64,000 nucleotides of DNA from Bacteroidales bacterium. Lineage in GTDB: Bacteria; Bacteroidota; Bacteroidia; Bacteroidales; UBA932. Position numbers and translations under genes: made by a program. The notes under the pieces were generated by a model that was not told the DNA's origin, did no database searches, and was given only the letters and a program-made list of their open reading frames with translations. Shown here in pieces: positions 1,404 to 58,345 of the stretch (positions within the stretch are counted from its first letter, which is position 1; every line of letters begins with the position of its first letter). The stretch covers positions 16,523 to 80,522 of the forward strand of contig JAFUGJ010000101.1 in the NCBI GenBank assembly GCA_017469425.1, given 5' to 3'.

Positions 1404-1520
1404 GATTTTTTATTAACGGAAAACAGCTTGCATATTCTGCGACCATTTTCCCGTCAGGGCCGCAAAGCGACAGGGAGCGGAAATGCGAGGTGTTTTTCAA
1501 AAAGGAAACAAATAAATATA

Positions 1521-2267
1521 ATGAAAAACATCGTATTAGTACGCCATGGCGAGAGCCAGTGGAACAAAGAGAACCGCTTTACCGGTTGGACAAATGTTGA
1601 TTTAAGTGAGAAGGGCCTTCAGGAAGCTCTCGATGCAGGAAAGGCACTCAAGGAAGCAGGCTTCAAATTCGATATTGCCTACACTTCATATCTGAAGAGG
1701 GCCGTAAAGACCCTGAACAATGTGCTCGACGCAATGGACCTCGACTGGATTCCCGTGGAAAAGACCTGGCGCCTCAACGAGAAGCATTACGGCATGCTCC
1801 AGGGCCTCAACAAGGCCGAGACCGCGGCCAAGTACGGCGACGAGCAGGTTCTCATCTGGCGCCGCAGCTATGATGTGGAACCACTTCCCCTTCCCGAGAC
1901 CGACCCCAACTCCGCAACGCAGGATCCCCGCTATGCTGATGTTCCCGACCAGTATGTTCCCCGCACCGAAGCCCTCAAGCAGTGCATCGAGCGCGTAATG
2001 CCTTTCTGGGAGTGCGAAATCTTCCCCAAGCTCAAGACCGTCGATAACATCATCGTAGTTGCTCATGGCAACAGCCTCCGCGGTGTGGTAAAGCACCTCA
2101 AGGGCATCTCCGACGCCGACATCGTAAAACTCAACATCCCTACGGCCACCCCGTATGTATTCGAGTTCGACGACGACCTCAATCTCGTGCGCGACTACTA
2201 TCTCGCCGACCCCGAGGAACTCGCCGCCAAGCAGGCCGCCGTTGCCAACCAGGGCAAAGCGAAGTAA
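1521..2267 (+). CDS. gpmA: 2,3-bisphosphoglycerate-dependent phosphoglycerate mutase
   Basis: This enzyme interconverts 3-phosphoglycerate and 2-phosphoglycerate in glycolysis and gluconeogenesis. The protein is 248 aa, the usual length for the dimeric cofactor-dependent family. It starts [15 protein letters not shown], with the phospho-accepting His in RHGES. The second catalytic His is in [10 protein letters not shown] near residue 180. An in-frame extension to 1428 exists, but the homologous N-terminus starts at 1521. It is followed by the palindromic repeat at 2285-2317, which probably serves as its terminator. Confidence 0.96.
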
Positions 2268-43686: not shown

Positions 43687-43771
43687 GGAGGAATGGCCGA
43701 GTGGTCGATGGCGGCAGTCTTGAAAACTGTTGTGCGGCAACGCACCGGGGGTTCGAATCCCTCTTCCTCCG
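43687..43771 (+). tRNA. tRNA-Ser, anticodon TGA
   Basis: 85 bases. Acceptor arms GGAGGAA and TTCCTCC, discriminator G, anticodon loop CTTGAAA (anticodon TGA), a long class II variable arm (TGTGCGGCAACGCAC) and a standard T-loop GTTCGAATC. The 3' CCA is not encoded. The gene is followed immediately by the structured element at 43778-43907 and accessory DNA, as expected for an integration site. Confidence 0.96.
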
Positions 43772-53906: not shown

Positions 53907-55517
53907 TTAGATGGATTTTATGAATTTTGTAAGATTTTCGCCATGGTCCAGGCCAAGTTTCGACCTGAGCCGGTAGCGGTTGATTTCCACCGATTTGGGC
54001 GTGATGTTCATCAGCGATGCTATGTGCTTGGTGCTCAGGCCCTGCCGCAGAAGGTTGGCAAGTTTGCGCTCGTTCTCCGTGAGGCCCGGGAAGGCTTCGC
54101 GCAGGCGCATGTTGAAGTCCTTGTGCAGCACTTCGCTGCGGGCGTAAAAGTCGTTCACTTCGCTTGCGAAATACATCCTTTCCCTCAGTGAATGGAGGAT
54201 TTCGTCGGTGGCGGCGTCCTTGTCGGGGCCGTCGGGCATCGCCCTCATCTTGCCGAGCCTGGCATAAATGTCGTCCATGAATTCCTTCTGGCTGCTGATG
54301 CCCACGGCAAAATCCACGAGTTCCTTGCGCTTCAGCTCAAGTTTTTCAAGAAGCTCCTTCTCATTCATTTCCGAACGCACTTCGAGCGCCGAAAGGGATT
54401 TCTGGTTGCTATATATTTGTTGTTCGCGCGAGCGCATGATTTGCCGTTGCAGGTCGCGGCCTTTCTGTATCCTGAGGTAGAGCGACACCAGCGCCGCCAG
54501 CAGAATGATGCCTGCGACTATCAGGGTGCTTACCATGTCGCCGCCCAGAATGCTCGCCAGGCTGTATGCAAACAGCACTCCCAGCACGGGGGAGAGAATT
54601 GCGGCGGCAAGGTGCTTGTACAGTGTGGTTTCGTCCGTGAGGGCGCTTTTTCTTGCTATGCCCAGGCCGGTCAGCGCCGCCAGATAAAGGCTGCATGCCG
54701 AAAGGGGAGTTGCGCTCATTCCCGCAAAGGACGGGAGCCTGGTGGAGAAGATGACAAGGGTCGCAGTGATGGCACAAAGAACCGACAGCACCGATTCGGA
54801 ATTTATCTCCAGTTCATTGTCGGCGATGCCGGAGCAGCTTGTGTAGGTGCGCCTGCGCAGGATGAAGAAAAGCGCAAGGTATGACAGCGGGATTATAAGA
54901 GCGGCAAGGCGTACTTCTGCCGACCCTGTTACTGCAAAGAAAGCGGCGATGCTGCCGGTGTTGAGGCTGTATGCTGCAATGAGGATGAACGAAACAAGTG
55001 TGGAAAGGGCGAGCAGGCGGCTGTCGAGCCGTGCGAGATGGATTCTGCGCTTTCCAGTGCATGCGGAGTAGAGCCGCCAGAATCCTGCCGCGAAAATGGC
55101 GCACAGCACGAAGGCCGCTATCCATGACGACATGTGCGTGAGTGCGCTTCCGGCTGCAAAAGTACCGTTTTCTGCCAGGTCCAGTCCGAAAATCGCACCT
55201 GTGAATGCATAAGGCACGGCCGGGTAGCGGCTTATCAGGTTGCTTATGATGCCTGCGGCTGCCGTGGCAATTACGAGAGCCAGGGCATTCTGGAAGGGAA
55301 CGGCCAGGATTGCGGGGCATGCGTCTGCAAAGGTCCTGTCTCCTGTCAGGATGAGAAGCCCCGGCCCCGCGGCAATCAGCAGGGGAAGCAGTAATCTTAC
55401 CGAGCGTCTTTCACCGGCACCGGATGCGAGGATGCAGCCCTCCACGACGGGATAGTCGCGAAGCAGCAGCATTGCGCCGCAGAGCATGGATGCCAATGTC
55501 AGGTACGCGAGCGTCAT
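53907..55517 (-). CDS. PiT-like membrane domain fused to a LuxR-type HTH: putative phosphate-sensing regulator
   Basis: 536 aa. Residues 1-335 hold about ten membrane segments that follow the inorganic phosphate transporter PiT course: IISNLISRYPAVPYAFTGA corresponds to the NLxxWYxGLPxSSSHxxxGA region of the first half, and FSTRLPSFAGMSATPLSA to the second half. The transport signature GANDxANA is lost: the equivalent place near 185-200 reads YSLNTGSIAAFF. A cytoplasmic coiled coil (about 340-420) leads to a C-terminal HTH (LTENERKLANLLRQGLSTKHIASLM). It overlaps DUF47 by one base, the usual partner of PiT transporters. A sensor role is inference. Confidence 0.7.
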   Translation of the reverse strand: MTLAYLTLASMLCGAMLLLRDYPVVEGCILASGAGERRSVRLLLPLLIAAGPGLLILTGDRTFADACPAILAVPFQNALALVIATAAAGIISNLISRYPAVPYAFTGAIFGLDLAENGTFAAGSALTHMSSWIAAFVLCAIFAAGFWRLYSACTGKRRIHLARLDSRLLALSTLVSFILIAAYSLNTGSIAAFFAVTGSAEVRLAALIIPLSYLALFFILRRRTYTSCSGIADNELEINSESVLSVLCAITATLVIFSTRLPSFAGMSATPLSACSLYLAALTGLGIARKSALTDETTLYKHLAAAILSPVLGVLFAYSLASILGGDMVSTLIVAGIILLAALVSLYLRIQKGRDLQRQIMRSREQQIYSNQKSLSALEVRSEMNEKELLEKLELKRKELVDFAVGISSQKEFMDDIYARLGKMRAMPDGPDKDAATDEILHSLRERMYFASEVNDFYARSEVLHKDFNMRLREAFPGLTENERKLANLLRQGLSTKHIASLMNITPKSVEINRYRLRSKLGLDHGENLTKFIKSI

Positions 55518-56179
55518 TACAGGTTTCGTTTGATTGCCATAACCGACAGTTGCTCAGCCACTTTGACCGCCGCTCTCGAGAGGTCTTCGATATGGAGTGC
55601 GAAGTATCTGAGATGGAATTTTTCGCTGAGTTTCAGTCCGTCCATGTCATGAAACACGGTGCGCTTTATCGACTGCGAGAGTTTTACGGCCTCTTTCTCG
55701 TAGAAATATACCCTGCTTGTCGTTTCCGCGACAGAGTCGGGATTGTTGAAGTATGCCTTCGTTCCGGGAATGGAGCTTTCCACCGAGAGGGCGGCGAGTT
55801 CGGAAAGTTTTACGAATTCCTTTTTCAGTTCGGCGGGAATTTTGGGTGCTTCAATCTCGAATTGTATAAGGTCATTGCTGATTATCGAAATGATGTGGTC
55901 GAACCTTTCGAGAAGGCGCATGATGTCGCCCCTTGAACGGATGAGGTATCCGCGCGAATACAGGGTGTTTTCGATGTCGCGCCTGAGAACGCCTGTTTCA
56001 GTCTCCAGCTCCGCCATGGTGGAAAGGTTGTCTTGGAAGGATGAAGGATCGTCGTAAAGGTAATTCCTTACCCCGTCCTTGAAGACGAGCAGCGAGTGGT
56101 CGACCTTGTCGAGCAGGTTGTCGATGTCGGCTGCGAGCCTGTCCGCCCTGCGGGTCCGGAATATATTAGGAAGGTGCAT
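55517..56179 (-). CDS. DUF47 / PhoU-like Pit accessory protein
   Basis: 220 aa, all helical. LLVFKDGVRNYLYDDPSSFQ, ISNDLIQFEIEAPKIP and DGLKLSEKFHLRYFALHIEDLSRAA match the TIGR00153/DUF47 family, distant PhoU relatives encoded beside PiT phosphate transporters. First gene of the minus-strand run. No perfect -7 box is seen upstream; a weak TATCTTCA lies at about 56205. Confidence 0.88.
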   Translation of the reverse strand: MHLPNIFRTRRADRLAADIDNLLDKVDHSLLVFKDGVRNYLYDDPSSFQDNLSTMAELETETGVLRRDIENTLYSRGYLIRSRGDIMRLLERFDHIISIISNDLIQFEIEAPKIPAELKKEFVKLSELAALSVESSIPGTKAYFNNPDSVAETTSRVYFYEKEAVKLSQSIKRTVFHDMDGLKLSEKFHLRYFALHIEDLSRAAVKVAEQLSVMAIKRNL

Positions 56180-56385: not shown

Positions 56386-57075
56386 TTATATTCCTTCTCC
56401 ATCCTGAAATCCGTGTTGGTAGATAGCTTTTCCCTGCACTATCCGGGAATACGGGGGCACGCTGGAAGTGAGCCATACATTTCCTCCAATCACCGAGCCT
56501 TTCCCTATCGTCACCCTTCCGAGTATCGAAGCGTTGGAATATACCGTCACATCGTCTTCGAGGATGGGATGTCTTGGGCCGGAGGAAATCTTCCTCGCAC
56601 CGAGCGTCACGCCCTGATACAGGGTGACGCCGTTGCCGATGACGGTGGTTGCGCCTATCACCACTCCCGTGCCGTGGTCGATTGCAAATCTTTCCCCTAT
56701 CTGCGCCGCCGGGTGAATGTCGATGCCGGTAAGGGAGTGAGCCATCTCCGTAAGCATCCTCGGGATTATCTTTACATTCAGTGCGAGCAGGGCGTGCGCC
56801 GTGCGGTAATGGAGCATCGCGGTAACCGACTGATAGCAAAGGATTACTTCGTCCAGCGAATCCGTGGCAGGGTCTGCATCCATTACAGCCCGGACATCGC
56901 TGTAAACGAGTCTCCTGATTTCCGGAAGCTCTTTCCTGAAGCCCTCCGCCGCCTCCTGCCCCGTAAGGTCGGCAAGGGCGGCGTAGATGGCTTCTTCGCG
57001 CATGGCTGCCGGATAGTATTCCGGAAACACATAGCTGCGGATGTCTTCCATCAGGATGTTGAGTTTCTCTCTCAT
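56386..57075 (-). CDS. cysE: Serine O-acetyltransferase
   Basis: 229 aa, of the short EpsC/SAT class with a left-handed beta-helix. HSLTGIDIHPAAQIGERFAIDHGTGVVIGATTVIG carries the catalytic Asp-His pair. DVTVYSNASILGRVTIGKGSVIGGNVWLT forms the last coils. It acetylates serine to O-acetylserine, the substrate of CysK. The ATG overlaps the cysK stop by 4 bases, so both come from the attenuator-controlled cysK transcript. Confidence 0.94.
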   Translation of the reverse strand: MREKLNILMEDIRSYVFPEYYPAAMREEAIYAALADLTGQEAAEGFRKELPEIRRLVYSDVRAVMDADPATDSLDEVILCYQSVTAMLHYRTAHALLALNVKIIPRMLTEMAHSLTGIDIHPAAQIGERFAIDHGTGVVIGATTVIGNGVTLYQGVTLGARKISSGPRHPILEDDVTVYSNASILGRVTIGKGSVIGGNVWLTSSVPPYSRIVQGKAIYQHGFQDGEGI

Positions 57076-58007
57076 GCTACAGGATACTCTTCGAATGCAT
57101 ACAGGACGGTGGAGAGATATCTTTCTCCGGTGTCGGGAAGCAGGGCCACTATGGTCTTGCCCTCGTTTGCAGGATTCTGGGCGAGTTTGAGTGCGGCGGC
57201 AAATGACGCTCCGGACGAAATGCCCACGAGAAGTCCTTCCTTGGATGCAAGCTTTCGCGAAGCGCCTATTGCCTCGTCGTCGCTGATGGTAAGGATTTCA
57301 TCGACTATCGCTGCATTGTAGGTGTCGGGAACGAAGCCTGCACCTATTCCCTGAATTTTGTGCTTTCCTGCAACTCCGGTGCTCAGCACGGCGGAAGAAG
57401 ACGGCTCCACGGCCACCACTTTCACTGCGGGATTATATTTCTTAAGGGTTTTGCCTGCTCCGCTTACGGTGCCGCCTGTACCCACTCCGGCTACGAAAAT
57501 ATCCACTTTTCCTTCAGTGTCCGCCCAGATTTCCTCGCCGGTGGTGCGCTCATGTACGGCAGGATTTGCGGGATTTACGAACTGGCCGAGGATTACGGCT
57601 CCTTCGATGCTGGCTTTGAGTTCGTCGGCCTTGCGGATTGCTCCCTTCATTCCTTCTGCGCCGGGAGTAAGTTCGAGTTTTGCTCCAAGGGCCTTGAGCA
57701 GGCTTCTTCGTTCCTGGCTCATGGTGTCGGGCATGGTGAGGATGACTTTGTATCCGCGGGCGGTTCCCACCCATGCAAGGCCGACGCCGGTGTTCCCGCT
57801 GGTGGGTTCGATGATGGTGGCTCCGGGTTTGAGGATGCCCTTCTGCTCCGCATCTTCAATCATGGCGAGGGCGATGCGGTCTTTCACGCTTCCTCCGGGG
57901 TTGAAGTATTCGAGTTTGACTACGATGTCGGCTTTCTGTCCTTCGAGGCCGGAGACGCGCAGCAGCGGCGTGCGTCCGATGAGTTCTGTAAGATTGTTGT
58001 AAATCAT
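57072..58007 (-). CDS. cysK: Cysteine synthase A (O-acetylserine sulfhydrylase)
   Basis: 311 aa. PLP enzyme that turns O-acetylserine and sulfide into cysteine. PLP lysine in NPGGSVKDRIA, substrate loop EPTSGNTGVGLAW, phosphate-binding GTGGTVSGAGK, and VGISSGASFAA. The frame continues upstream to 58073 through the leader terminator, so the ATG at 58007 is the real start, matching homologues (MIYNNLTELIGRTPLL). The leader carries a cysteine-codon attenuator. Confidence 0.96.
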   Translation of the reverse strand: MIYNNLTELIGRTPLLRVSGLEGQKADIVVKLEYFNPGGSVKDRIALAMIEDAEQKGILKPGATIIEPTSGNTGVGLAWVGTARGYKVILTMPDTMSQERRSLLKALGAKLELTPGAEGMKGAIRKADELKASIEGAVILGQFVNPANPAVHERTTGEEIWADTEGKVDIFVAGVGTGGTVSGAGKTLKKYNPAVKVVAVEPSSSAVLSTGVAGKHKIQGIGAGFVPDTYNAAIVDEILTISDDEAIGASRKLASKEGLLVGISSGASFAAALKLAQNPANEGKTIVALLPDTGERYLSTVLYAFEEYPVA

Positions 58008-58036
58008 GATATTGGTGTTTTGAATGATGAATTGAC

Positions 58037-58068
58037 AAAAAAAGCCAGCCGGAAATACACCGACTGGC
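58037..58068 (-). terminator. Attenuator terminator in the cysK-cysE leader
   Basis: On the minus strand GCCAGTCGG pairs with CCGGCTGGC (one G-U, 7-base loop), followed by seven T, 30 bases before the cysK ATG and about 120 bases after the promoter. Its 5' arm (extended TTGTTGCCAGTCGG, 58060-58073) can instead pair with 58123-58138 in the leader peptide. Confidence 0.88.
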
Positions 58069-58102
58069 AACAAGATGATATCGTCTGTTTAAAGAAAACT
58101 GC

Positions 58103-58186
58103 TTAGTTCATATACGACGCCTTTGCTGTACCAATCGGGAAATCGGCACGACAGCAACAAGCGATATTTACTACAAGCGTTCTCAT
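58103..58186 (-). CDS. Leader peptide with three consecutive Cys codons (cysteine attenuator)
   Basis: 27 codons, ATG to TAA, beginning MRTLVVNIACCCR. The codons TGT TGC TGT are at 58151-58159. Seven bases separate the -7 box from the ATG, so it is translated from a leaderless or nearly leaderless mRNA. The Cys codons themselves (TTGCTGT) are complementary to ACAGCAA (58123-58129), the start of the antiterminator strand. A ribosome waiting for Cys-tRNA would cover them and free that strand. No homology search was possible; the case rests on gene context and base pairing. Confidence 0.82.
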   Translation of the reverse strand: MRTLVVNIACCCRADFPIGTAKASYMN

Positions 58187-58193
58187 TCGGATG

Positions 58194-58225
58194 CAAATCT
58201 ATGTAATCCTTTTCGTATATCCAAA
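58194..58225 (-). promoter_or_regulatory. Promoter of the cysK-cysE leader
   Basis: On the minus strand TTTG (58222-58225), 20 bases, then TAGATTTG (58194-58201): a perfect match. Predicted start of transcription is next to the leader peptide ATG. Confidence 0.85.
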
Positions 58226-58262
58226 CTTTTTCCAATTTATTTTTTGAGAAGGTGCGCAAGTT

Positions 58263-58293
58263 TTTGTGGATTAAGAAAAAATGGCTAAATTTG
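58263..58293 (+). promoter_or_regulatory. Promoter of rpsO
   Basis: TTTG at 58263-58266, 19 bases, TAAATTTG at 58286-58293. It diverges from the cysK promoter. The leader to rpsO is about 100 bases. Confidence 0.8.
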
Positions 58294-58345
58294 CACGCTT
58301 TTGTCCGAAGTGGTGAACGGCGATTTTGCCACATTGGCAACAAGC

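Follow-up and report, generated by a model that had tools for sequence, protein, structure and literature searches.

A candidate cysteine leader-peptide attenuator upstream of cysK-cysE in Bacteroidales

The cysK-cysE gene pair on the minus strand of the window (the whole stretch of DNA analysed here, 64,000 nucleotides from a gut or rumen Bacteroidales bacterium) is preceded by a short open reading frame with adjacent Cys codons, by a predicted intrinsic terminator and by an alternative helix that shares the 5′ arm of this terminator. We consider this leader to be very probably a ribosome-mediated transcription attenuator that senses charged tRNA-Cys. Comparison with related leaders shows, at the level of the sequence, that the Cys codons and the terminator are conserved, that the antiterminator covaries and that the spacing of these elements is similar. 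The features of the locus are collected in Table 1.

A preliminary description had placed the promoter, the leader ORF, the Cys codons, the terminator and the pairing regions on the minus strand, and all of them could be read back base for base. The putative promoter (TTTG-20 nt-TAGATTTG) matches the Bacteroidota consensus TTTG/TAnnTTTG, as quoted in PMC7366714. Since the ATG of the leader ORF lies only 7 nt past the -7 box, the leader mRNA is predicted to be leaderless or to have a 5′ UTR only a few bases long. The second gene of the pair scores 173.9 bits against the cysE model TIGR01172, under the cut-off of 210.65, and 156.4 bits against NF041874 (serine O-acetyltransferase EpsC), over the cut-off of 150. 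Downstream of it lie a gene (55517-56179) that matches TIGR00153 only weakly (21.4 bits, far under the cut-off) and, after this, a 536-codon ORF (53907-55517). The upstream neighbour of the leader, rpsO, is divergently oriented; therefore, the terminator of an upstream gene is ruled out and the hairpin belongs to the cysK transcript.

Table 1. Features of the predicted cysK-cysE leader in the window
Feature	Position	Strand	Sequence or description	Basis or remark
-33 promoter element	58222..58225	minus	TTTG	read back from the sequence; 20 nt ahead of the -7 box
-7 promoter element	58194..58201	minus	TAGATTTG	read back from the sequence
Predicted leader peptide ORF	58103..58186	minus	27 codons, MRTLVVNIACCCRADFPIGTAKASYMN; ATG at 58186, stop TAA at 58105-58103	equivalents in 28 other leaders
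Regulatory codons (region 1)	58151..58159	minus	TGT TGC TGT, TGTTGCTGT	read from the sequence; the chief feature constant among the leader peptides is the Cys cluster
Region 2, antiterminator 5′ strand	58123..58138	minus	CCGATTGGTACAGCAA (CCGATTGG-TA-CAGCAA)	duplex energy, covariation
Region 3, antiterminator 3′ strand	58060..58073	minus	TTGTTGCCAGTCGG; overlaps the terminator 5′ arm	duplex, covariation
Predicted intrinsic terminator (regions 3:4)	58037..58068	minus	9-bp stem plus T7	fold energy; helix covaries
cysK, cysteine synthase A	57072..58007	minus		NCBIfam TIGR01139, 438.9 bits, cut-off 350.95
cysE-like serine O-acetyltransferase	56386..57075	minus	ATG overlaps the cysK stop; 4-base overlap	

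Related leaders were collected by CysK searches in 149 genomes of the family, 26 genomes of the sister genus, 101 genomes of the own genus and the contigs of named genomes. Upstream regions were read for the best-ranked matches, namely 30 of the family-genome matches, the 17 sister-genus genomes with matches, and 19 new loci plus 15 fetched stretches of the own genus. These searches added 21 Cys leaders ahead of cysK, of which 8 come from the sister genus, 12 from the own genus and one (L032) from a named reindeer MAG assigned to Bacteroidales. In 80 named loci, the best of 591, a stretch of at most 350 nt ahead of cysK was screened for CC-containing ORFs; we accepted L032 and L034 (both with at least three Cys) and L038 (two Cys), and set aside the ORFs in L036, L039, L068, L076, L089 and L097, the last four at first listing. 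The named relatives with the leader are uncultured Bacteroidales or Bacteroidia, several of them from ruminants. An RNA model built from 18 leaders and applied to 151 genomes of the genus found 7 further leaders, each before cysK; their genomes were not part of the model building, and four of the seven (L175, L176, L178 and L183) are near kin of model rows. Altogether, 24 of the 151 genomes matched the model and 21 hold the leader, one in truncated form (L187), while the matches in G180, G129 and G657 and a second match in G173 were judged to be due to chance. The resulting set, including the window, comprises 29 leaders before cysK, with 8 from the sister genus, 20 from the own genus and one from the named Bacteroidales MAG. 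The same model matched 14 of 393 genomes of the order, only the match in the window's own genome being real; inspection of the other 13 (21-27 bits) led us to treat them as chance matches. This points weakly to an absence of leaders elsewhere in the order, the scan having been of reduced sensitivity (stricter filters, 9 first-look candidates scored per genome, a model tuned to the family).

Across the groups, the leader peptides (for example MKQIMSNMCCCCAIRKVGRRCRAY, MKTSGTKSFNVCCCCIILNGWCGSCVA, MRHLTNNTCCCCADSADWYGQPCVL, MTRIYSSVCCCCTILSDWYGV, MKNSMIISMSACCCCCFAPVSDWYGKPAL, MVRLYSMNSCCCTFLPGWYTLCP and MTMKRNNTACCCCDCYTPGGAVALS) are alike in little except a cluster of 2-5 Cys codons, which takes the patterns CCC, CCCC, CCCCC, CLCC, CRCC, CCIC and CC and is split by one other codon in L125, L152, L178 and L188. 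All 29 leaders, found by searches that started from cysK, have neighbouring Cys codons in a short ORF ahead of this Cys-making gene. A short ORF with three Cys within 4 codons and a later T4 run occurs in 51 of 20,000 random 260-nt windows of the loci, a frequency that rules out a chance ORF beside an unrelated terminator; the same combination is found in 29 of the 69 cysK upstream regions, a set that includes 7 rows contributed by the RNA model and three duplicates of other rows (L034, L036 and L038). Looking at related cysK leaders had been proposed in the preliminary description as a check on its reading, and these leaders indeed keep the Cys cluster, the terminator and the covarying antiterminator, with the rest of the peptide varying.

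A cluster of adjacent cysteines could bind metal, and it is conceivable that the poly-Cys nascent chain acts as a sensor, either as a ligand of metal, sulfide or oxidants or by chemically causing the ribosome to pause, so that the same switch, with an RNA part of identical appearance, answers to metal or redox state. However, as only 7-11 residues stand ahead of the cluster, the cysteines would at this point lie far inside the exit tunnel, given its length; moreover, their number and pattern vary, and cysK as the next gene in 29 of 29 leaders (again by searches begun from cysK) fits cysteine supply. We therefore regard sensing by the nascent chain as unlikely, and favour the sensing of charged tRNA-Cys. 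The presence of a terminator and a mutually exclusive structure would also suit a ligand-binding riboswitch, or a regulatory protein acting on the terminator, the short ORF being incidental; this is very improbable, because the Cys codons stay in frame while the flanking residues change and because little else is conserved in the alignments apart from these codons and the two helices. In addition, the whole window has only one Rfam match at the gathering score, a tRNA (43687-43771), which rules out a known RNA family (riboswitch, T-box or leader), and a search of 57990-58300 at E ≤ 5 returned nothing relevant, the weak matches being to unrelated families (Qrr, snoRNAs).

The attenuator proposed here depends on two competing helices. 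The terminator of the window has a predicted energy of -16.2 kcal/mol (p = 0.002, 1000 dinucleotide shuffles), and 22 of 22 leaders tested have a hairpin with p ≤ 0.008 against shuffles and an adjoining T-run; these values are optimistic, as in both tests the best hairpin was chosen ahead of shuffling. The regularity with which a strong hairpin stands beside a T-run, together with the covarying partner of its 5′ arm (see below), argues against a leader that controls cysK translation or Rho-dependent termination with the hairpin being secondary, as has been proposed for mycobacteria. There, according to PMC1262725, leaders with Cys runs are predicted before cys operons and a conserved terminator is lacking; PMC13236596 describes translation attenuation for polycysteine leaderless short ORFs before such operons, and Rho has been proposed as well. 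We deem a mechanism of this kind highly improbable for the cysK leaders, and retain transcription attenuation at the intrinsic terminator.

That region 2 pairs with the 5′ arm of the terminator, as the preliminary description had claimed, is supported by the predicted energy of the 2:3 duplex in the window (-18.3 kcal/mol; p = 0.011, and p = 0.006 with 500 shuffles) and by its covariation in relatives. The duplex reaches p ≤ 0.05 in 19 of the 29 leaders, and 5 of these 19 are among the 7 model-found leaders; in the remaining 10 of the 29 the pairing is not above shuffles. The full set of 29 includes 7 near copies from the sister genus. The antiterminator so predicted is mutually exclusive with the terminator, whose 5′ arm it shares. 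Its pairing part in region 2 starts 8-16 nt past the main Cys run in 17 leaders, and 0-19 nt past the last Cys of the cluster when 22 leaders are considered, some of them with further Cys codons downstream. The complementarity also described between region 1 and region 2 (TTGCTGT with ACAGCAA) is present in the window but weak by itself (-9.2) and not above shuffles (p = 0.18). Base pairing between Cys codons and region 2 exceeds shuffles in 7 of 22 leaders, the window not among them, and does not appear to be a general feature of these leaders.

Covariation was evaluated on MAFFT alignments of 18 and 25 leaders made from sequence alone, the near copies L004, L112, L113 and L114 being left out of both; in the larger alignment the 3′ strand of L134, L150 and L183 was misplaced at two columns and these cells were counted as gaps. 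The alignments bring out two elements, GGNTGG-TA-CGG after the Cys codons and CCTGCCANNC within the 5′ arm of the terminator. For the antiterminator of 18 leaders, 85.2% of the cells are paired and the covariation is 0.351 (0 of 500 shuffles as high), as against 27-50% and 0.06-0.17 when the partner is slid along. With 25 leaders the values are 87.2% and 0.365 (0 of 500), and 24 cells are changed on both sides compared to a shuffled mean of 6.6 (0 of 500). One pair, 38:121 of the 18-leader alignment, shows five types (UG, UA, GC, CG and AU). The terminator helix is stronger than the antiterminator in this respect, with 91.7% of the cells paired and a covariation of 0.527 in 18 leaders. Under stricter measures (both-side-changed pairs and pair types, respectively), as high a value was obtained in 276 and 369 of 500 shuffles for the antiterminator in 18 leaders, in 80 and 60 of 500 in 25 leaders, and in 57 and 88 of 500 for the terminator in 18 leaders. 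Because these measures are not above the shuffles, which moreover ignore the relatedness of the leaders, we base the covariation of the antiterminator on the paired cells, the score and the slides, and chiefly on pair 38:121. Among the three helices named in the preliminary description, 2:3 and 3:4 covary; the pairing between Cys codons and region 2 does not appear to recur generally. The pairing element appears to be kept as RNA and not as peptide, since it is read in different frames in the window (CCG ATT GGT) and in L032 (GAT TGG TAC), and since in L135 the GGTTGGTATGG element lies past the leader stop codon.

The mechanism that we infer runs from the start of transcription through translation of the ORF and ribosome stalling to readthrough, with cysteine as signal. 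In this mechanism, the transcript would start at the leader ATG or a few bases from it, and a ribosome would immediately start on the leader peptide. If Cys-tRNA is plentiful, this ribosome would translate through the three Cys codons and across region 2 on its way to the stop codon; region 2, being covered, could not pair with region 3, the 3:4 terminator would form and transcription would end before cysK. When Cys-tRNA is scarce, the ribosome would stall at the Cys codons and, judging from the reach of a ribosome on mRNA, would extend forward about to region 2 or end short of it. Free region 2 would then pair with region 3 as soon as this is transcribed, the terminator would not form, and cysK-cysE would be transcribed.

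Folding models with a placed ribosome are largely consistent with this scheme. In the stalled model, where only regions 1-3 are made and the RNA is masked as far as 12 nt from the start of the first Cys codon, the predicted probability of the antiterminator is at least 0.6 in 25 of the 29 leaders. For the window, the predicted 2:3 pairing rises from 0.16 without a ribosome to 0.77 with the RNA blocked to the first Cys codon, in line with the earlier proposal that a Cys-stalled ribosome frees region 2. In 18 of the 29 leaders the gain is 0.2 or more; in the other 11 it is smaller, the antiterminator being predicted about equally well with the stalled ribosome and without translation. Relative to the stalled model, placing the ribosome at the stop codon lowers the predicted antiterminator by at least 0.2 in all 29 leaders, and placing it over region 2 does so in 22. 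The reach of a stop-codon ribosome in the window would extend barely as far as region 2. When the whole leader is folded at equilibrium and the ribosome is placed on the first Cys codon, the antiterminator equals or exceeds the terminator in just 6 of 22 leaders, with a tie in the window. As the terminator wins at equilibrium in most full-length leaders, the antiterminator must form first; known attenuators likewise depend on this order.

The position of the putative promoter relative to the ORF varies among the leaders. A -7-like TTTG box lies 7-9 nt ahead of the ORF start in 14 of 29 (L192 being used for L121), and a near-leaderless start is predicted for about half of them. The nearest TTTG is 16-36 nt from the ORF start in 10 others, none is present within 60 nt in 4, and in L175 a TTTG that is not -7-like stands 5 nt from the start. 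For comparison, about 3.7% of the 5′ UTRs of Bacteroides thetaiotaomicron are shorter than 10 nt, as reported in PMC7366714. Two odd contexts were encountered. In L032 (1749-1963), the ATG of the Cys leader (1826) is one base beyond the end of a tRNA-His gene (1749-1824), so that 3′ processing of the tRNA would give a near-leaderless message. In L141 (464-603), L142 (490-628) and L176 (about 538-677), the leader ORF is located 4 nt past the stop codon of a putative rpoC, recognised from its C-terminal reading, and these leaders may be read inside a longer operon. We put forward only tentatively, and as a possibility more doubtful than probable, that the leaders represent a Bacteroidota-specific family of Cys attenuators whose ORF is built for reading from the 5′ end of the mRNA, with coinciding starts of transcription and translation, and can be moved behind other 5′ ends, such as the end of tRNA-His (one relative) or an rpoC-like gene (three).

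No such leader is found in 38 of the 69 cysK upstream regions. Several cysK genes without it (L012, L017, L024, L029, L115-L119, L138, L139, L143 and L147) lie directly behind a gene putatively encoding O-acetylhomoserine sulfhydrylase, again from a C-terminal reading. On a tree of 64 CysK rows, which left out L034, L036 and L038 (duplicates of L005, L129 and L135) and two rows shorter than 240 aa, the leader label needs 11 changes compared with 21 after shuffling. The distribution is clustered but patchy, which we provisionally take as repeated loss or gene movement. Individual leaders also deviate from the common plan: L135 has two Cys codons only and its stop codon falls ahead of region 2. 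About 76 nt before cysK in L129/L036 (same contig), a near-leaderless ORF, MQDFLQQYKYTLPISG, overlaps the terminator; this leader has neither Cys codons nor region 2 and is perhaps a decayed one. In L187 (match 1501-1629, minus strand), the Cys leader is joined at CCTGCCAATCCC directly to an internal part of a cysK coding sequence, where similar letters encode NPANP of cysK; this fusion stems from a deletion between short homologous stretches or else from an assembly error.

The classical trp, his and leu attenuators consist of a short ORF with codons for the end product, an intrinsic terminator and an antiterminator that shares one strand with it. The cysK leaders are alike in all three elements and differ in that about half are predicted to be near-leaderless and in the lack of a generally conserved pairing between control codons and region 2. 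Polycysteine leaderless short ORFs before mycobacterial cys operons were reportedly described by Canestrari in 2020. With these, the cysK leaders share an ORF carrying a Cys run ahead of cysteine-synthesis genes, and a start that in part of them is predicted to be leaderless or nearly so; they differ by their intrinsic terminator and covarying antiterminator, in contrast to the mycobacterial leaders as characterised in the sources cited above. A further parallel, by description alone, is uORFC-8-2 before cysS of Rhodobacterales, for which PMC8632094 reports tandem Cys codons in a short uORF, a terminator and a proposed stalling for lack of Cys-tRNA. It belongs to another phylum, precedes cysS instead of cysK and has its Cys codons inside the first stem. 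Within the same phylum, leader-peptide attenuation of amino-acid operons, the same general mechanism, is described for Flavobacterium psychrophilum in PMC9723704, cysteine genes not being named in the text available, and leader-like sORFs are reported for B. thetaiotaomicron in PMC7366714.

The preliminary description knew of no Cys leader-peptide case in Bacteroidota, and none was found in the literature searched, the coverage of which leaves aside most subscription papers. Amino-acid leader attenuation in Bacteroidota and Cys leaders in other phyla are thus known, and the well-supported novelty, judged from sequence comparison, is a predicted cysteine attenuator in Bacteroidota. If confirmed, it would be a complete cysteine-responsive attenuator, with terminator and covarying antiterminator, in a phylum for which the literature searched describes few leader-peptide controls, and a switch often placed on near-leaderless ORFs, which are rare in this phylum to judge from the B. 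thetaiotaomicron figure in PMC7366714. Since such a switch works only if ribosomes follow RNA polymerase closely, it would also offer a test of the closeness between the two machineries in Bacteroidota.
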